From Phreatobacter cathodiphilus (GTDB taxonomy: Bacteria; Pseudomonadota; Alphaproteobacteria; Rhizobiales; Phreatobacteraceae), in assembly GCF_003008515.1 (NCBI RefSeq), contig NZ_CP027668.1, forward strand, positions 860,001 to 924,000: DNA of 64,000 bases. The letters are read 5' to 3'. Under the pieces are notes generated by a model that saw only the letters and a program-made list of their open reading frames with translations, made no database searches and was not told the DNA's origin. Shown here piece after piece: positions 56,038-64,000 of this stretch (its first letter is position 1; each line of letters opens with the position of its first letter). Both the position numbers and the translations under genes were made by a program.

Positions 56038-56979
56038 ATGATGCCCTACATTCTCCGGCGGGTGGCCGCGACGATCCCCGTGCTCGTCTTCGTGGCCCTC
56101 TTTGTCTTCTTCCTGCTGCGGCTGACGCCGGGGGATCCCGCTGTGCTGATCGCCGGCGACCAGGCGACGGAGGCGCAGATCGAGACGATCCGCCGGCAGC
56201 TCGGGCTCGACAGGCCGATCCTCGAACAACTCGTCGCCTGGACGGGACGCATCCTCTCCGGCGACCTCGGCCGGTCCGTCTTCTCCGACATGGAGGTGAC
56301 GCGGTTGGTCGCCATGCGGATCGAGCCCACCGCCCTTCTGGCCCTGGTCGCCATCGTCATGGCGCTGGTCATCGCGCTGCCGCTGGGGACGCTCGCCGCC
56401 GTGACGGCGGGCAGCCGCATCGACCGCGCGGTCATGGCCTTCGCCATGCTCGGGTTTTCGTCGCCCGTCTTCGTCGTCGCCTTCCTGCTCGTCTATGTCT
56501 TCGCGCTGACGCTCGGCTGGTTCCCGACGCAAGGTTATGTCCCGCTCGCCGACGGTGTCTGGGCCTGTCTCAACAGCCTCATTCTGCCGGGCATGGCGCT
56601 GGCCATGCTCTATGCGGCGCTTCTGGCGCGCATCACCCGGACGAGCCTCCTCGAGGTGCTGTCGGAGGACTATGTCCGCACCGCCCGCGCCAAGGGGTTG
56701 ATGCCGCTGCGCGTGCTGGTCCGCCACGCCCTGCAGAACGCCGCCATTCCCATCGTCACCGTCGTCGGCGTCGGTATCGCGGCGCTGCTCGGCGGGGTGG
56801 TGGTGACCGAGACGGTGTTCAACATCCCCGGCCTCGGCCGCCTGACGACGGACGCCATCCTGCGCCGCGACTATCCCGTGGTGCAGGGGCTCATCCTGAT
56901 CTTTTCGGGCGTCTACGTGCTCATCAACCTGCTGGTCGACCTCAGCTATGTGCTGTTCGACCCGCGCGTGCGCTATTGA
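56038..56979 (+). CDS. ABC transporter permease, OppB/DppB type
   Basis: 313 aa. LTPGDPAVLIAGDQAT, ILSGDLGRSVFSDMEV, the coupling loop RTARAKGL, ETVFNIPGLGRLTTDAILRRDYPVVQG and VLFDPRVRY are OppB features. Two ATGs lie in tandem (56038, 56041). First gene of the plus-strand arm of the LacI regulon. Confidence 0.94.
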   Translation: MMPYILRRVAATIPVLVFVALFVFFLLRLTPGDPAVLIAGDQATEAQIETIRRQLGLDRPILEQLVAWTGRILSGDLGRSVFSDMEVTRLVAMRIEPTALLALVAIVMALVIALPLGTLAAVTAGSRIDRAVMAFAMLGFSSPVFVVAFLLVYVFALTLGWFPTQGYVPLADGVWACLNSLILPGMALAMLYAALLARITRTSLLEVLSEDYVRTARAKGLMPLRVLVRHALQNAAIPIVTVVGVGIAALLGGVVVTETVFNIPGLGRLTTDAILRRDYPVVQGLILIFSGVYVLINLLVDLSYVLFDPRVRY

Positions 56980-56986
56980 GGGCGAG

Positions 56987-57883
56987 ATGGCGATGACCGA
57001 CGCCTCTCCGCGGAGCGCCACGCCCCTCCAGTCCCTCGCCGAGACGGTGGGTCGGCTCGGCGCCTTCCTGCGCGCCAATCCCGTAGTCGCCACCGGCCTC
57101 ATCGTGCTCCTCGTCTTCGCACTGGTGGCGCTGCTCGCGCCGCTGATCTTCGTCGATCCGGCACGGGTCAACCCGCTGCAGCGGCTGCGCCCGCCGAGCC
57201 TCGCCCATCCCTTCGGTACCGATCAGATCGGCCGCTCGACCCTGTCGCGGACGTTCAACGGCACCGCCATCTCGCTGACGGTCGGTGCGCTGGTCACCGC
57301 CGTCGTCGTCGTCTTCGGCCTCCTCATCGGCCTCGTCTCCGGCTTCGTGCGCTGGCTCGACGGGATCGCCATGCGGGTGATGGACGGCATGATGGCCATC
57401 CCGGGCATCCTGCTCGCCATCGCGCTGATGTCGCTGTTCGGCTCGGGCGTGCGCAACGTCATCATCGCCATCGCGATCGCCGAGATCCCGCGCATGGCGC
57501 GGATCGTCCGCTCCTCCGTGCTGGTGATCCGCGAGCAGCCCTATGTGGAGGCGGCGCGCGCCGCAGGCACCCGCACGCCGCGGCTTCTCGTCCAGCACAT
57601 CCTGCCGAACGTCGCGGCGCCCGTGATCGTCCAGGCGACCTACGTCTTCGCCTCCGCGATGATCGTGGAATCGGTCCTGTCCTTCCTCGGTGCCGGCACG
57701 CCGCCGACCGTTCCGAGCTGGGGCAACATGCTGGCCGAGGGACGCGCCTTCATGCAGCGCGCGCCGTGGATGATCGCCTTCCCCGGCGTCGCGCTCGCGC
57801 TGCTGGTGCTGACCGTCAACGTGCTGGGCGACGCGCTGCGCGACGCCATCGATCCGAAACTCGCGCGGCAACTGCGCACCTGA
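56987..57883 (+). CDS. ABC transporter permease, OppC/DppC type
   Basis: 298 aa. A cytoplasmic N-terminus of about 45 residues precedes the first helix. FGTDQIGRSTLSRTFNGT, MDGMMAIPGILLAIALM, ESVLSFLGAGTPPTVPSWGNML and RDAIDPKLA follow. The usual GRD of the motif is replaced by GRS. ATG 56987 has GAGGGCGAG upstream; ATG 56993 is an alternative. Confidence 0.93.
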   Translation: MAMTDASPRSATPLQSLAETVGRLGAFLRANPVVATGLIVLLVFALVALLAPLIFVDPARVNPLQRLRPPSLAHPFGTDQIGRSTLSRTFNGTAISLTVGALVTAVVVVFGLLIGLVSGFVRWLDGIAMRVMDGMMAIPGILLAIALMSLFGSGVRNVIIAIAIAEIPRMARIVRSSVLVIREQPYVEAARAAGTRTPRLLVQHILPNVAAPVIVQATYVFASAMIVESVLSFLGAGTPPTVPSWGNMLAEGRAFMQRAPWMIAFPGVALALLVLTVNVLGDALRDAIDPKLARQLRT

Positions 57884-57957
57884 TTGCCCCGCCACGCGGG
57901 CAAGAGCGCCGGGCAACGGCGCCATACGACGAAACGACAGAGCGGGAGGAGACGGGA

Positions 57958-59514
57958 ATGACCCACTGGACACGACGACTGACGACGGCCGCCACAGCGG
58001 CCATGCTCATCATGACGGCTCTGCCGGCCATGGCGCAGACGGTGCTGAAGGTGCGCCCCTTCGGCGACCTGCGCACCATCGACCCGATCACCACGTCGGA
58101 CTACATGGTCCGCAACCACGGCTACATGGTCTACGACACGCTGTTCGCTCAGGACGGTTCCGGCGCCATCAAGCCGCAGATGGTGGAGCGCCACACGGTC
58201 TCGGACGACGGCAAGACCTGGACCTTCGTGCTGCGCGAGGGCCTGAAGTTCCACGACAACCAGCCGGTCACGGCGGAGGACGTCGTCGCCTCGCTCAAGC
58301 GCTGGGGCGAGCGCGACGGGCTCGGTCAGCAGCTCATGGGGCAGACGGCCTCGCTCACCGCCACCGACGCCAGGACGGTGACGCTCGTCCTGAAGGAGCG
58401 CTGGGGCCTCGTGCTGGAGGCCCTCGGCAAGCCGAGCTCGATGGTGCCCTTCATCATGCCGGCGCGGATCGCCGCCACGCCGGCCAACCAGAACATCACC
58501 GATCCCATCGGCTCCGGCCCCTTCATGATGATCAGGGCCGAATGGTCGCCGGGCGCGAAGATCGTCTATGCCCGCGCGCCGATGTACGTGCCCCGCGCCG
58601 AACCGGCCGACGGCCTCGCCGGGGGCAAGCGGGCTCAGGTCGACCGCGTCGAGTGGATCATCATGCCCGACGCGCAGACCGCACTGAACGCGCTGCAGGC
58701 GGGCGAGATCGACATTTTCGAGGAGTTGCCGCCCGACATGATCCCGCTGGTGAAGTCCAACGCGCGGATCGCCATCAGCAGGCTGTCGGCGCTCCAGGGC
58801 GTCATGCGCATGAACCAGCTCCAGCCACCCTTCAACAACGCGAAGCTGCGGCAGGCGATCCTGCGCCTCGTCGATCAGGAGCAGACGCTCAGGGCCTATG
58901 TCGACGACAAGGCCCTCTACACGAACTGCCCGTCGTTCTTTATGTGCGACTCGCCCTATTTCACGAATGCGGCCTGGAAGCCCGCCGACGTTGCCGCGGC
59001 GCGCGCCCTGGTGCGCGAGAGCGGCTACAACGGCGAAAAGATCGTGCTGCTCGACGCCACCGAGACGGCGCTGAGCCCGGCCACCTTGGTGGTGGCACAG
59101 GCCATGCGCGACATCGGCCTCAACGTCGACTACCAGGCGATGGACTGGGGCACGCTGTCGAGCCGCCGCACCTCGAAGAACCCGGTCGCGCAAGGGGGCT
59201 GGTCGGCCTTCCTGTCGGGTCCCGCGGCCCCCGACATGTGGGAGCCGGTCGGGCACCTGGCGCTCCGCTCGAACTGCGACCGCGCCTGGTTCGGCTGGCC
59301 TTGCGATGAGGCCATCGAGAAGCTCCGCGCCGCCTTCACCACCGCGCCGGACCTCGCCGGCCGGCAGGCCATCGCCCGGCAGATCCAGGAGCGGGCGGTT
59401 GAAACGGTGCCCTATGTGCCGGTCGGCCAGTTCTGGCTGGTGCGTGGCCACCAGGCGAGCCTCAAGGGTCTGCTGACGGCGGGGCTGCCGGTCTACTGGA
59501 ACATCAGCAAGTGA
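57958..59514 (+). CDS. ABC substrate-binding protein, SBP family 5, of the LacI regulon
   Basis: 518 aa with a Sec signal (TTAATAAMLIMTALPAMAQ). Core motifs are HTVSDDGKTWTFVLREGLKFHDNQPVTAEDVVASL, ITDPIGSGPFMMIRAEW and KLRQAILRLVDQEQTL. GGGAGGAGA precedes ATG 57958. It follows the permeases by 74 bp and is the last gene before a double hairpin. No ATPase gene exists in this operon. Receptors of this family also bind sugars and oligosaccharides, fitting the fucose-like enzymes opposite. Confidence 0.93.
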   Translation: MTHWTRRLTTAATAAMLIMTALPAMAQTVLKVRPFGDLRTIDPITTSDYMVRNHGYMVYDTLFAQDGSGAIKPQMVERHTVSDDGKTWTFVLREGLKFHDNQPVTAEDVVASLKRWGERDGLGQQLMGQTASLTATDARTVTLVLKERWGLVLEALGKPSSMVPFIMPARIAATPANQNITDPIGSGPFMMIRAEWSPGAKIVYARAPMYVPRAEPADGLAGGKRAQVDRVEWIIMPDAQTALNALQAGEIDIFEELPPDMIPLVKSNARIAISRLSALQGVMRMNQLQPPFNNAKLRQAILRLVDQEQTLRAYVDDKALYTNCPSFFMCDSPYFTNAAWKPADVAAARALVRESGYNGEKIVLLDATETALSPATLVVAQAMRDIGLNVDYQAMDWGTLSSRRTSKNPVAQGGWSAFLSGPAAPDMWEPVGHLALRSNCDRAWFGWPCDEAIEKLRAAFTTAPDLAGRQAIARQIQERAVETVPYVPVGQFWLVRGHQASLKGLLTAGLPVYWNISK

Positions 59515-59522
59515 CGACGTCG

Positions 59523-59583
59523 GGAGCCGGACCGCGTCGTGCGGCCCGGCTCCAAAGGGGCGCCGGCGTCTTGCCCTTTGGTG
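59523..59583. terminator. Two nested hairpins between receptor and soxA
   Basis: GGAGCCGG (59523-59530) pairs with CCGGCTCC (59546-59553), with CCGC/GCGG inside and a 5-base loop. It is followed by CCAAAGGG (59552-59559) pairing with CCCTTTGG (ending near 59581). The first starts 8 bases after the receptor stop. The pair separates the LacI regulon from the convergent sox operon. Confidence 0.65.
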
Positions 59584-59640: not shown

Positions 59641-60390
59641 CTAGCGACGCAGGCCCGGAGATTCGACCGGCAGGCCGCGGGCACGTACGGCGAGATAGAG
59701 CTCGAGCGCCAGATATTCCGCCGATCCATAGGAAAACTGGGTCGCCCTGACGCCGAGCGAGCAGGCGCGCAGCCGGCGGTGCAGCGAGCCCATCGTGTTC
59801 CATTCGAGCCGGTAGGCGGGAAATCCGGTGCCGACCCCGCTGGAGATGACGTCGCCGCGCAGGCGACGGCCGACGTTCGCCTCGTGGCAATGGGCGCAGG
59901 ACAGGTTGAGCTGGCCCATGCGCGTCTCGAACAGCCGCCGTCCCTCGGCGACGAAGGATGCGGCCGGTCCGTCGGTGGCGACAGCCGTCGGCAGCCCGCG
60001 CGACTGCACCGCCACCGCCGCGGTGAGGGCAAGCAGGTCGTCGCTCTCATAGCCGAAGGCCGGCGCCTGCTGGTGGCGGCTGCGGCATGTCTCGATGCGG
60101 CCTTCGAGATTGAGAAGGCGCCCGTCACCGGCCACCTGCGGATAGCGGGTCGCCGCGCCGCGCATCCCGCCGATGTCGCCGTGGCAGCCCTGGCAGGACG
60201 GGCGTCCGCCCGCCGGCGCCGCCCGCCAGAGCGTCTCGCCCGAATCCACCCACAGCCAGCCCGGGTGGCGGGAGGGATCGTCCTGCAACGCCCGGAGGTC
60301 CGGCGACAGGAAGGTCGCGGGCGCGCGCACCTCGCCGGCGCCGGCCGCCGTCGCCGCGAGCATCAGGGCGAAAGCGATCGTCGCCCTCAT
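59641..60390 (-). CDS. soxA: Sulfur-oxidation diheme cytochrome c SoxA
   Basis: 249 aa with a short Sec signal (MRATIAFALMLAATAAGAG). Two heme sites, CQGCH (66-70) and CAHCH (165-169), mark a diheme SoxA. The third key cysteine, C210 in LRACSLGVRATQF, matches the position of the active heme-ligating cysteine persulfide. With SoxX it should attach a sulfane or related group to the SoxY cysteine. Overlaps soxZ by four bases. No soxB follows; the next feature is a terminator. Confidence 0.93.
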   Translation of the reverse strand: MRATIAFALMLAATAAGAGEVRAPATFLSPDLRALQDDPSRHPGWLWVDSGETLWRAAPAGGRPSCQGCHGDIGGMRGAATRYPQVAGDGRLLNLEGRIETCRSRHQQAPAFGYESDDLLALTAAVAVQSRGLPTAVATDGPAASFVAEGRRLFETRMGQLNLSCAHCHEANVGRRLRGDVISSGVGTGFPAYRLEWNTMGSLHRRLRACSLGVRATQFSYGSAEYLALELYLAVRARGLPVESPGLRR

Positions 60391-60716
60391 GTCACCGTCA
60401 GGCTCTGGCGGCGCTCGTAGGTGACGCCGCCGTCCTCGATCCATTCGAACACGAGTTCGCCGCTGCGCTCGGCGCGGGTGGTGAAGGCGACATAGGGATT
60501 GGCGGCGATGCCGGGCGAAAGCTCTATGCGGAAGAGCTCCTGCCCCTCCTGGGTCACGCGCAGCGTGTGGATGATCTTGCGCGCCACTGGTCTCAGCCCC
60601 GGCGCGTCGATGGCGCGCTCCATCGGATGGCGAGCGAGCACGCGGATCTCGACGATCTCGCTGCGGCGGGCCTCTGCCGGCATGGTGATGCGGGCGGGAA
60701 GGGTGGCGCTGGCCAT
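60387..60716 (-). CDS. soxZ: Sulfur carrier complex subunit SoxZ
   Basis: 109 aa, standard for SoxZ. Immunoglobulin-like fold with EIVEIRVLARHPMERAI, ELFRIELSPGIAANPYVAFTTRAERSGELVFEWIEDGG. Its role is to form the SoxYZ carrier heterodimer in the periplasm. It has no signal peptide and would be carried out with the Tat-exported SoxY. GGAGG upstream of ATG 60716, 3 bp from the soxY stop. Confidence 0.94.
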   Translation of the reverse strand: MASATLPARITMPAEARRSEIVEIRVLARHPMERAIDAPGLRPVARKIIHTLRVTQEGQELFRIELSPGIAANPYVAFTTRAERSGELVFEWIEDGGVTYERRQSLTVT

Positions 60717-60719
60717 GGC

Positions 60720-61199
60720 TCAGCCTCCGTCCACGCAGGCGCCGAGGATGACGATGACCTCGCGGCTGCCGCGATGGACGACGCCGCGGCTCGTCTCGGC
60801 GAGCACCACGATGGTCTGCGTCTCCGCCAGGCGGATCCGCGTGGCGACGTCGGCGCGGCCGGCCTGCGGGCCGATGTGGAAAGTCGCGATCCGCGGGAAG
60901 GGGTTCTTCTCGGCCAGGATGTGAATGCGGGCGACATGGTCCTCGGCGCTCATCGGGCTGTCGATCCTGACCGCGATGTCCACAGCATTGCCGTTCTCCG
61001 AGAGCTGCGGCATCTCGATGGACAGGCCCGCCGCCGCCGGCTCGCGCCCGGCGAGGATCGCCCGCTCCGCGGCGGCGAAGGTCTCGGCTGATGCCGCCTG
61101 GCCCGAAGCCGCGGCGGGAGCGAGGGCGACAGCGGCCGCCGCGGCGATGGCGACGCGCCGCGTCAGGAGATCCGGCCGTTCAGGGGAAGGTTTGGGCAT
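60720..61199 (-). CDS. soxY: Sulfur carrier subunit SoxY
   Basis: 159 aa with a Tat signal (LLTRRVAIAAAAAVALAPAAASG, RR at 14-15). The SoxY core includes LSENGNAVDIAVRIDSPMS and HVARIHILAEKNPFPRIATFHIGP. The substrate-carrying cysteine is C155 in a tail that reads GACVDGG, unlike the canonical GGCGG arm. The extra bulk and charge (V-D) next to the cysteine is a notable variation. AAGGAG lies six bases before ATG 61199, overlapping the soxX stop. Confidence 0.94.
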   Translation of the reverse strand: MPKPSPERPDLLTRRVAIAAAAAVALAPAAASGQAASAETFAAAERAILAGREPAAAGLSIEMPQLSENGNAVDIAVRIDSPMSAEDHVARIHILAEKNPFPRIATFHIGPQAGRADVATRIRLAETQTIVVLAETSRGVVHRGSREVIVILGACVDGG

Positions 61200-61202
61200 G
61201 GT

Positions 61203-61643
61203 TCACTCCTTCAGGGCGGACAGATAGGCGACCACGTCCTCGATCTCCTGAGCGGAGAGCACCGGCCGTCCCCGCCAGCGCTCGTCGACATGGGCAAGGC
61301 CCGCAACGCGATGATAGGCCGGCATCACCGCCGCGGGGTTGGCGAGCGTCGGATCGATGACCCGCAGCCTGATCTGGCCGGGGGTGAGGCGGGCGCCGAC
61401 ACCCGCGAGCAGCGGCCCCACCTCGCCCATGAACGTCTCCGCCGGATCGGGGATCGTGTGGCAGATGAGACAATTGGCCGTCTCCCGGTTGCGGACGATC
61501 CGCGCGCCGCGCTCGGCCGATCCGGTGAGCCCGCCGAGCGGCGCCGCCACGGCATCGCCCGAGACGACGAAGGGCGCAACCTCCTGTCCCGCCGCCGGTG
61601 CGGCGAGGCCGAGGACGACCAGGGCGGCGCGGAAGCCCCTCAC
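61203..61643 (-). CDS. soxX: Sulfur-oxidation monoheme cytochrome c SoxX
   Basis: 146 aa with an N-terminal signal (RGFRAALVVLGLAAPAAGQ) and one heme site CLICH at 58-62. The pattern ERGARIVRNRETANCLICH and the LANPAAVMPAYHRV segment with the axial Met fit SoxX. It starts at GTG 61643, overlapping the molybdenum hydroxylase stop (GTGA), which puts it in the same operon. Confidence 0.9.
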   Translation of the reverse strand: MRGFRAALVVLGLAAPAAGQEVAPFVVSGDAVAAPLGGLTGSAERGARIVRNRETANCLICHTIPDPAETFMGEVGPLLAGVGARLTPGQIRLRVIDPTLANPAAVMPAYHRVAGLAHVDERWRGRPVLSAQEIEDVVAYLSALKE

Positions 61644-63814
61644 GCCCGCCTGAGGTCCTGGTCCTTCAGCGGCACCGAGCGGATGCGCTTGCCCGTGGCG
61701 GCGAAGATCGCGTTCAGCACGGCCGGCGCCGCCACCATGATGGTCGGCTCGCCGACGCCGCCCCAGAAGCCGCCGGAGGGCATGACGATGGTCTCGACCT
61801 TCGGCATCTCGTCCATGCGCAGGACGTTGTAGCTGTCGAAATTGGTCTCGACGATCTGCCCGTCCTTCACCGTGCAGGCGCCGTAGAGCAGGGCCGAGAG
61901 GCCGTAGACGAAGGAGCCCTCCACCTGCATCTCGATCTGCCGCGGGTTGACGGCATGGCCGCAGTCGGTGGCCGCCACGATGCGGTGCATGCGCAGCTTG
62001 CCCGCCGCATCGACCGAGACCTCGGCAGCGGCGGCCACATAGCTGCCGAAGCCCATCTGCTGGGCGATGCCGCGGTGGACGCCTGCCGGCGGCGGCTTGT
62101 CCCAGCCGATCCTCTCGGCCACCGCGTTCAGCACGGCGAGGTGGCGGGGATGGTTGCCCATCAGCTTGCGGCGGAAGGCGAGGGGATCCTGCCCCGCCGC
62201 GTGGGCGAGCTCGTCGAGGAAGCACTCCAGGTAGATGGCATTCTGGTTGTGGTTCACGCCCCGCCAGAAATGCGGCGGCACGTGGGTGTTCCGCATGGCG
62301 TGGTCGATCAGCAGGTTGGGGAAGGAATAGCCGATCTGGCTGTCGTTGCCGCCGGCGTTCAGCCCCTGGAACTGCACGGGATCGCGGCCGCTCTGCAGCG
62401 CCGTGGGGAAAACGTAGGAGAGGATCGACTGGCCGGAGATGCGCATGTGCAGACCGACGACGTTTCCCTGTGCGTCGAGGCCGCCGGTGAGCTTGCACAT
62501 GGTGACGGGGTGGTAGCGCCCCTGCACCATGTCCTCCTCGCGCGTCCATTGCGTCTTGATCGGCACGCCCGGCACCTGCCTGGCGATGGTGACGGCCTGG
62601 ATGAGCCAGTCGTGGGTGGTTCGCCGGCCGAAGCCGCCGCCGAGATCGACGCGGTGCACGTCGCACGCCGTCTGCGGCAGGCCGGCGGCCTGGGCGGTCG
62701 CGGCCAGCGCCGCCTCGCCGTTCTGGGTGGGGCACCAGACGTCACAGCGCGTCGGTGTCCACACCACCGTGGCGTTCATCGGCTCCATCGGCGCGTGATT
62801 CTGGAAGGGGTACTCGTAGACGGCCTCCAGCTTCCGGGCCGCCCCGGCGATGGCGGCGCGGGCGTCGCCGTTGGTGTTGCCGACGAAGGCCTCCTGCGCA
62901 TCGAGCCCCTCGCGCAACTGCGCCGCGATGGTTTCGGAGGACACCGCCCGGTTCGGCCCGTAGTCCCAGGTGACGGGCAGGGCGTCGAGGGCGGTCTTCG
63001 CCTGCCAGAACGTGTCGGCCACCACGGCGACCGCGGTGTCGGCGACCTTCAGCACGTGCCGCACGCCGGGCATGGAGGAGACCTTGGCGGCGTCGAAGGA
63101 CGCGACCTTGCCGCCGAACACGGGGCATTCCTTCGGTACGGCCACCAGCATGCCGGGCATCTTCAGGTCCGAGCCGTAGACAAGCGCGCCGGTGGTCTTC
63201 GCGGCGGTATCGAGACGCTTCGCCGAGGTGCCGATGACGGTCCAGTCCTTCGGGTCCTTCAAGGGCACGTTGGCGGGCGGCGTCAGGCGGGCGGCGGCGG
63301 CCGCGACCTGCCCGTAGCGCACGGACCGGCCGGACGCGGCGTGGGTGATGACGCTGTCCTTGGCGGTGCACTGCGCGGCCGGTACGCCCCAGGCGTCGGC
63401 GGCCGCCTGGATCAGCATGACGCGGGCGGTGGCGCCGCCGCGGCGGACGTATTCGTGGCTCTGGCGGATGCCCTGGCTGCCGGCGGTGAGGAAGGCGCCC
63501 CAGGCGCGGTTGCGGGCGAGGGACTGGCCGGGCGTCACGTATTCGGTGACGATCTTCGACCAGTCGCAGTGCAGCTCCTCCGCGATCATCTGGCAGAGCC
63601 CGGTGCGCGTGCCCTGGCCCATCTCGGAGCGCGCCATGCGCAGCACCACCGTGTCGTCGGGACGGATGACGACCCAGGCGTTGATCTCAGGGGTTGCGGC
63701 GGGCGCCGGCTGCTGGGCGAAGGCATCGGTCGGCAGGCAGAAGCCGACGGTGAGGCCGGCGGCGGCCTTGAGGACGGCGCGGCGGGAGGCGGTCGTGGTC
63801 TCGATGAGCGTCAT
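61640..63814 (-). CDS. Molybdenum hydroxylase large subunit, isoquinoline 1-oxidoreductase beta (IorB)-like
   Basis: 724 aa with a Tat signal (ASRRAVLKAAAGLTVGFCL), so it acts in the periplasm. Xanthine-dehydrogenase family motifs are EMGQGTRTGLCQMIAEEL, DLGGGFGRR, FWRGVNHNQN, and GGVGEPTIMVAAPAVLNAI with the catalytic Glu that activates the Mo ligand. The IorB-type subfamily normally pairs with a small 2Fe-2S subunit and passes electrons to a cytochrome c. ATG 63814 has GAGGGAGG five bases upstream. The substrate is unknown: N-heterocycles or aldehydes are typical. Confidence 0.92.
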   Translation of the reverse strand: MTLIETTTASRRAVLKAAAGLTVGFCLPTDAFAQQPAPAATPEINAWVVIRPDDTVVLRMARSEMGQGTRTGLCQMIAEELHCDWSKIVTEYVTPGQSLARNRAWGAFLTAGSQGIRQSHEYVRRGGATARVMLIQAAADAWGVPAAQCTAKDSVITHAASGRSVRYGQVAAAAARLTPPANVPLKDPKDWTVIGTSAKRLDTAAKTTGALVYGSDLKMPGMLVAVPKECPVFGGKVASFDAAKVSSMPGVRHVLKVADTAVAVVADTFWQAKTALDALPVTWDYGPNRAVSSETIAAQLREGLDAQEAFVGNTNGDARAAIAGAARKLEAVYEYPFQNHAPMEPMNATVVWTPTRCDVWCPTQNGEAALAATAQAAGLPQTACDVHRVDLGGGFGRRTTHDWLIQAVTIARQVPGVPIKTQWTREEDMVQGRYHPVTMCKLTGGLDAQGNVVGLHMRISGQSILSYVFPTALQSGRDPVQFQGLNAGGNDSQIGYSFPNLLIDHAMRNTHVPPHFWRGVNHNQNAIYLECFLDELAHAAGQDPLAFRRKLMGNHPRHLAVLNAVAERIGWDKPPPAGVHRGIAQQMGFGSYVAAAAEVSVDAAGKLRMHRIVAATDCGHAVNPRQIEMQVEGSFVYGLSALLYGACTVKDGQIVETNFDSYNVLRMDEMPKVETIVMPSGGFWGGVGEPTIMVAAPAVLNAIFAATGKRIRSVPLKDQDLRRA

Positions 63815-63825
63815 GTCGGCCTCCC

Positions 63826-64000
63826 TCAGCCCTGGCGGTTCGCGGCGGCCTGCTTGATGCCGGCGCGGACGCGGTTGTAGGTGCCGCACCGGCAGATGTT
63901 GGTCATCGCATTGTCGATGTCCTCGTCCGTCGGGTTCGGCTTCTCCGCGAGCAGGGCGGCGGCGGCCATGATCATGCCGGACTGGCAATAGCCGCACTGG
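63826..64000 (-). CDS. 2Fe-2S subunit of the molybdenum hydroxylase, IorA-like (N-terminus cut by window edge)
   Basis: The last 57 residues are readable up to the right edge. [16 protein letters not shown] and [15 protein letters not shown] are the second 2Fe-2S cluster motifs of the CoxS/IorA small subunit. It transfers electrons from the Mo site. It is 11 bp upstream of the large subunit gene on the same strand. The first cluster domain lies outside the window. Confidence 0.92.

Follow-up and report, generated by a model that had tools for sequence, protein, structure and literature searches.

We analysed a 64,000-nucleotide stretch of the Phreatobacter cathodiphilus genome (NZ_CP027668.1, positions 860,001 to 924,000 of the forward strand; hereafter the window), at the end of which genes for the Sox proteins SoxX, SoxY, SoxZ and SoxA stand in one operon with a molybdenum (Mo) hydroxylase. 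On the minus strand the gene order is [2Fe-2S] subunit (FeS), Mo hydroxylase (MoL), soxX, soxY, soxZ, soxA, an arrangement that we refer to as the module. Its features, in window positions, are the following.

63826..64000, minus strand: 3' end of the FeS gene, the rest of which lies upstream, beyond the window
61640..63814, minus strand: MoL, large subunit of the xanthine oxidase family, with a twin-arginine signal and the Pfam domains MoCoBD_1 and MoCoBD_2
61203..61643, minus strand: soxX, monohaem cytochrome c, GTG start overlapping the MoL stop (TIGR04485, 72.5 bits, cut-off 61)
60720..61199, minus strand: variant soxY, carrier subunit, with a twin-arginine signal recognised by eye (Pfam SoxY, 109.1 bits)
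60723..60743, minus strand: variant swinging arm of SoxY, GACVDGG, with the carrier cysteine at residue 155 (from sequence)
60387..60716, minus strand: soxZ (Pfam SoxZ, 65 bits)
59641..60390, minus strand: soxA, dihaem cytochrome c with CQGCH, CAHCH and RRLRAC (TIGR04484, 200.9 bits, cut-off 110)
about 59523..59553, minus strand: hairpin 3' of soxA with a 13-pair stem (fold of a 126-base stretch, z -3.3)

Gene order, coordinates and family scores agree in placing soxXYZA and the Mo enzyme in one operon, as the initial annotation of this DNA had proposed. SoxX and SoxA score above their NCBIfam cut-offs, and SoxA matches the solved chain 1h31_A with an E value of 3e-49; SoxZ (57.4 bits against TIGR04490, under the cut-off of 76) and SoxY stay below the “true” NCBIfam models and pass those of Pfam. 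The haem-binding motif CxxCH occurs in the operon only in SoxX and SoxA, and SoxYZ has none. Other details of that annotation stood in part. The 2Fe-2S partner is present, but only the 3' end of its gene falls within the window; with an assumed GTG start, the whole gene spans about C1:923826-924284 (L005:7830-8312, minus strand), and its product matches NCBIfam 2Fe-2S subunit models with up to 138 bits and has cysteine motifs that are nearly invariant across 103 rows. Of the junctions described as overlapping, MoL/soxX and soxZ/soxA do overlap, by 4 bases each, whereas FeS/MoL, soxX/soxY and soxY/soxZ are separated by short gaps. Similarly, the terminator placed right after soxA corresponds to a strong hairpin, but this hairpin has no U-tract, and a terminator scan 3' of soxA returned no hit.

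The absence of soxB and soxCD, also pointed out at the outset, holds for the operon but not for the organism, since the genome search revealed a complete soxB/soxCD locus elsewhere in the Phreatobacter genome. Its soxB lies at C1:1724563-1726248 (845 bits), about 0.8 Mb from the window operon. The initial annotation had named such a locus, co-regulated with the operon, as a refutation of its idea; the presence of the locus counts against that idea for this genome, but not for the carriers in general, as the survey below shows. In this canonical locus soxX and soxA are on one strand and soxYZBCD, together with a gene for a flavoprotein resembling flavocytochrome c sulfide dehydrogenase (FCSD), on the other; SoxC scores 630.6 bits, and SoxD is named by position, its protein scoring only as a cytochrome c. 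The proteins of the two loci differ: at the canonical locus the end of SoxY reads GGCGG and SoxA contains only one CxxCH motif; the window SoxY ends in GACVDGG, and the window SoxA has two CxxCH motifs, the two SoxA proteins sharing about 28% identity. The canonical locus (G000:C1:1711000-1730900; L003) further contains a YeeE-like gene, a cytochrome c gene and a small DsrE-like gene, the YeeE-like and DsrE-like genes being named by eye.

A scan for MoL across 84,980 species, each represented by a single genome, yielded 156 relatives, of which the best 80 were kept. In 67 of these best 80, complete soxX, soxY, soxZ and soxA follow in this order downstream of MoL, which refutes the possibility, raised in the initial annotation, that the adjacency is limited to a single genome. 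Twelve of the other 13 loci end at a contig edge within about 1.4 kb of MoL; the last one, Reyranella locus L113, has FccB but no sox genes, and a complete FeS-MoL-FccAB-soxXYZA arrangement lies about 145 kb away in the same genome. Five of the best 80 are Phreatobacter genomes shared with our count for the genus (L052-L055, L068). Within the genus, soxX follows MoL immediately in 9 of 12 genomes (MoL-soxXYZA), the window genome included; the remaining three carry FeS-MoL, FccAB and soxXYZA. By record title, the carriers are Alpha- and Betaproteobacteria, and their sources include ponds, groundwater and plant roots. A complete module is found on a plasmid of Methylobacterium sp. NMS14P, modules are retained in genomes of 1.7-2.1 Mb, and a comparison of SoxY with phage records gave no match.

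The linkage was also examined in the reverse direction, in an even sample of 398 genomes across the phylum. SoxY proteins above the cut-off of TIGR04487 were present in 14 of them, in all 14 cases beside FeS-MoL, and the same was true of the next five of five in rank. A MoL search of 398 genomes gave 24 matches with at least 58% identity, of which 20 are accompanied by soxXYZA and one by soxX and soxA alone; the stretches fetched around the other three contain no sox gene. In this sample, the variant SoxYZ always occurs with MoL, but MoL does not always occur with Sox. As a side observation, a plasmid of Roseomonas marmotae encodes a SoxY that is 67% identical to the window SoxY and annotated as an ordinary thiosulfate carrier SoxY (NZ_CP061094.1:37954-38280); the same plasmid carries a MoL relative (H1).

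Module SoxY proteins are distinguished from canonical ones at the swinging arm. Ala-Cys is found there in 96 of 97 module sequences, the exception being a mis-extended row, and an acidic residue follows two positions after the cysteine in 92 of 97; the GGCGG arm occurs in 0 of 97 module sequences versus 19 of 19 canonical ones (the latter a choice from the fetched loci; L052-L055 and L068 are not in the module set). Of this kind a protein family only has been defined, TIGR04487, SoxY_para_1 or “SoxY-related AACIE arm protein”. It is the best NCBIfam match of the window SoxY, which at 129.8 bits remains below its cut-off of 172 (TIGR04488: 100.3 bits, cut-off 125), and three genus members with the module pass it. 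The window arm reads GACVD versus the AACIE type of the family, and rows with AACxE and GACxD/E fall together on one side of the SoxYZ tree. In quick trees without bootstrap, in which L126 was left out and for which a warning of long branches meeting was issued, SoxY (arm removed) combined with SoxZ separated 95 module from 19 canonical rows by one branch (SH-like approximate likelihood ratio test [SH-aLRT], 99), and the module rows still occupied one side after the addition of 8 further SoxY proteins, seven with a GGCLT arm beside an FCSD gene and L160 with GGCGG (SH-aLRT, 100). An equally quick SoxA tree, with one short row omitted, split 92 module from 19 canonical rows (SH-aLRT, 86). All 92 module SoxA proteins have two CxxCH motifs, and 90 of the 92 have an RRLRxC-like motif. 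The GGCLT arm also marks a third kind of SoxY within the genus, encoded next to an FCSD flavoprotein (L032, L033, L035-L039).

Next, we asked whether the module occurs without SoxB. The search covered 62 module genomes, that is, the window genome and 61 others, representing 50 of the 80 MoL loci plus 11 genus genomes (these covering five Phreatobacter loci), with isolates selected first and then metagenome-assembled genomes (MAGs) on larger contigs. SoxB scored above the cut-off in 32 of the 62, including the window genome and one case in which it is split over two contigs. No SoxB above the cut-off was found in the other 30, a proportion that is not a frequency for the phylum, as the set was picked by similarity to the window MoL. 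SoxC was found in 28 of the 62, again including the window genome, and in 0 of the 30 that lack SoxB. Three of these 30 are Phreatobacter genomes (G001, one contig and 100% complete; G002, 99%; G009, 97%); the others are, by title, 22 isolates and five MAGs. Of the 19 module genomes in the even sample, 15 have SoxB, and the four without it all belong to one family and are listed as 100% complete. Matches of about 100-150 bits were counted as 5'-nucleotidase relatives, because such sub-cut-off matches also appear in 10 of 14 control genomes, Escherichia coli included. The module is independent of SoxB and SoxC. It shares SoxX, SoxY, SoxZ and a dihaem-type SoxA with the canonical Sox system, and differs from it in a cluster that lacks SoxB and SoxCD and includes a Mo hydroxylase, in an Ala-Cys arm in place of GGCGG and in its separate branch. 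The suggestion of a distinct Sox variant is supported: the linkage is fixed across Alpha- and Betaproteobacteria, SoxY has its own arm and its own branch, and the genes occur in genomes without SoxB and SoxC. One of the 30 genomes without SoxB, G026, encodes a SoxB-like protein (G026:C45:99824-101161; L221) with 337 bits and 34% identity to SoxB over 413 residues, which was considered and counted as not SoxB; its score lies between those of SoxB and of the 5'-nucleotidase relatives.

The closest described system is the second sox cluster of Starkeya novella, soxX2Y2Z2A2F2 with a Mo enzyme of the xanthine oxidase family (Snov_1975-1982; Kappler et al. 2013, PMC3797975). Like the operon studied here, it combines copies of SoxAX and SoxYZ with such an enzyme in one operon without SoxB or SoxCD; in addition, it includes a SoxF-like flavocytochrome, and a complete sox cluster lies elsewhere in the genome. 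The accessible part of that report concerns one organism, assigns no function and does not discuss arm or distribution; from its description we infer that the two clusters are orthologous. SoxAX and SoxYZ of the second cluster went undetected, and its transcript levels were very low whether glucose, methanol or thiosulfate was supplied; the authors suggest that the cluster either has no functional significance or is important under other conditions (PMC3797975). Two alternatives can be weighed here. The module proteins might be isoenzymes that open the canonical thiosulfate pathway to further substrates and pass their sulfur to SoxB/SoxCD in trans, as the presence of SoxB in the 32 and 15 genomes of the two sets would allow; given the 30 and 4 module genomes without it, and the very low expression in S. 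novella with thiosulfate as one of the substrates, we regard this as distinctly unlikely. The genes might instead be non-functional duplicates, in keeping with the failure to detect the S. novella proteins under the conditions tested. This is very improbable: four pairwise comparisons within the genus gave ratios of nonsynonymous to synonymous substitution (dN/dS) of 0.06-0.12 (FeS, MoL) and 0.13-0.41 (sox genes), so that all six look like working genes under purifying selection, the motifs are intact across about 100 loci, and the module is kept even in the small genomes mentioned above.

The Mo enzyme itself shows the features of the xanthine oxidase family, namely, MoCoBD domains, a [2Fe-2S] subunit and a GxGEP motif. 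The form GGVGEPTI, which we take to hold the catalytic glutamate of the family, is present in 101 of 105 MoL sequences, and a twin-arginine pattern (loose regular expression) in 90 of 105. Among solved chains MoL is closest to 8gy3_C, the large subunit of the membrane-bound aldehyde dehydrogenase of Gluconobacter, to which it is homologous over its full length (E value, 1.5e-79); a structural model of MoL (m08920887aba2; predicted local distance difference test score, 78) superimposes on this chain with a template modeling (TM) score of 0.80 and 28% identity in the fold match. In the Gluconobacter enzyme a cytochrome c subunit presumably serves as the electron acceptor, whereas the window operon does not encode a multihaem cytochrome subunit of its own.

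Among neighbouring genes, only those for FccB and FccA recur in a steady position. By sequence, FccB is the flavoprotein of a sulfide dehydrogenase of the FCSD type (5n1t; E value, 3e-151), and FccAB presumably corresponds in kind to the canonical SoxEF. Of the 67 full loci, 25 have FccB near the module: between MoL and soxX in 7, just after soxA on the same strand in 12, just after soxA on the opposite strand in 4 and about 3 kb further on in 2. Counting the entire genome, an FccB-like protein is found somewhere in 61 of the 62 module genomes. In one of those without SoxB, the FccB match (G001:C1:3693325-3694596) has a stop codon in the aligned stretch.

A further source of evidence is provided by lineages in which the Sox part is reduced or replaced. 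The one-contig genome G200 (L210:5783-9910) has FeS-MoL-soxX-soxA, with haem motifs and the SoxA cysteine intact, and no SoxY was found in this genome, where the best match reached 12.9 bits. In three loci (L212, from genome G360, and L223 and L224, from two Sinorhizobium plasmids), a cytochrome c of about 130 residues is encoded directly upstream of FeS-MoL, and the fetched stretch is free of sox genes. In G248 and in the second copies of G353 and G442, no sox genes were seen in the stretch and no same-strand CxxCH gene within 4.5 kb. In MoL trees of 67 and 42 chosen rows, the Sox-reduced rows nest among the Sox-linked ones, the placement of the G442 copy being unsettled, and the three cytochrome c loci do not form a single clade (approximately unbiased [AU] test, P = 0.0007; the group was set by gene content, though a quick tree had been seen before the test). 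The simplest reading is that the Sox part was lost repeatedly and that a plain cytochrome c took over at least twice. This would make SoxXA the natural electron acceptor of FeS-MoL, an idea already put forward in the initial annotation that gains support from the lineages with a small cytochrome c or with soxXA alone and from the restriction of CxxCH to SoxX and SoxA in the window operon, and it would mean that MoL can work without SoxYZ. On the Sinorhizobium plasmids, which include psymA of Sinorhizobium meliloti, the cytochrome c, 2Fe-2S and MoL relatives span L223:7040-10160 and L224:7032-10145, with 62-65% identity to MoL; plasmid records matching MoL at an E value of 1e-100 number 205.

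These lineages bear directly on the order in which Sox proteins and Mo enzyme might act. It is tempting to speculate that SoxXA couples an organic thiol to the arm of SoxYZ, where MoL then hydroxylates the carbon next to the tethered sulfur, so that an aldehyde leaves and a persulfide stays on SoxYZ. In the operon a Mo enzyme occupies the place of canonical SoxB and SoxCD (SoxC, too, is a Mo enzyme), and the surroundings of the carrier cysteine do vary with the partner, from Ala-Cys in the module to GGCGG in canonical systems. However, nested MoL relatives exist without SoxYZ in cis (L210, L211, L212, L213, L223, L224), and G200 has no SoxY at all. The earlier proposal that the Mo enzyme hydroxylates a SoxYZ-loaded group is weakened by such close relatives, and we consider it unlikely that the reaction proceeds on the carrier; a Sox system for organic sulfur, in which the C-S bond is cleaved in the periplasm on a re-tuned SoxYZ independently of SoxB and SoxCD, is similarly doubtful.

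At the other extreme, the Sox proteins could do no more than exchange electrons with an ordinary dehydrogenase of aldehydes or N-heterocycles, with no sulfur being oxidised. Both the proximity of MoL to the Gluconobacter enzyme and the plain cytochrome c that replaces SoxXYZA in three loci would fit. We nevertheless find this rather improbable, as the RRLRxC-like cysteine of SoxA and the cysteine of SoxY are both kept, SoxYZ is devoid of a haem motif, and a sulfide dehydrogenase flavoprotein accompanies more than a third of the full modules. In the Sox pathway, SoxXA and SoxYZ act in disulfide formation and FccAB/SoxEF in carrier activation. The retention of both cysteines and the frequency of FccAB suggest that the sulfur chemistry is real.

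Our tentative preference is for a self-contained periplasmic oxidation module, in which MoL carries out the oxidation and SoxXA has two tasks, to provide the electron outlet and to charge SoxYZ with a sulfur product. After export through the twin-arginine translocation (Tat) pathway, FeS and MoL together would hydroxylate a small free substrate with oxygen from water; electrons would pass from the [2Fe-2S] centres to the c-type haems of SoxX and SoxA and on to the cytochrome c pool. SoxXA would also attach a thiol or sulfide, either released by the reaction or borne by the substrate, to the carrier cysteine in the variant SoxYZ, and FccAB, where present, might reactivate or unload the carrier. 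Several observations weigh against this preference. Among solved structures an aldehyde dehydrogenase is nearest to MoL, so MoL itself does not indicate a sulfur-bearing substrate, and FccB is missing from the stretch examined in 42 of the 67 full loci. The second copies in G353 and G442 and the G248 locus imply that a partner of FeS-MoL can also be absent in cis, and L212, one of the three cytochrome c loci, sits on a long branch in the MoL tree. Finally, the absence of SoxB is less reliable in the five of the 30 genomes that are MAGs by title (G041, G045, G046, G047, G060).

The arrangement was thus known before from at least one organism, and what is added here is its breadth, the arm change, the separate branch and the independence from SoxB. 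Beyond PMC3797975, no other report of an association between Sox and a Mo hydroxylase was found in a partial coverage of the literature: the accessible parts of work on SoxY expansion (PMC11237559), SoxT (PMC11582611) and Congregibacter Sox (PMC4003848) contain nothing on a Mo hydroxylase with Sox, and Advenella SoxYZ on mercaptosuccinate (PMC5373536), as far as the accessible text describes it, represents a different setting. Taken together, the data describe a widespread Sox variant and point to an oxidation pathway not characterised before. This matters because sox genes are often read as a sign of thiosulfate oxidation; with no SoxB found in 34 of the 81 carriers searched (30 of 62 and 4 of 19), soxXYZA calls in those genomes probably mean something else. 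Identifying the substrate would give new access to oxidation in the periplasm, most likely that of sulfur compounds, and would also reveal how the arm of SoxYZ is adapted to the enzymes it works with. The module is directly testable in SoxB-less isolates of Duganella, Pseudoduganella and Roseomonas.

Flanking genes were also considered as a clue to the substrate and set aside: an ABC-type (ATP-binding cassette) ATPase (21 loci) and a solute-binding-like protein (19 loci) are scattered and were judged by eye to be lineage specific. Upstream of the window operon (L005:8706-16000), there are a gene for a GntR regulator and, by eye, divergent genes for an amino-acid type ABC transporter and for M20 peptidase-like, enolase-superfamily and M24-like proteins; the GntR gene was not found in the genus loci L040-L051, some of which are incomplete. 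On the other side, convergent genes for permeases and a solute-binding protein of a dipeptide-type ABC transporter (by eye) occupy window positions 56038-59514 and end just before soxA, so that the hairpin on the soxA side sits between the sox operon and this convergent transporter operon.

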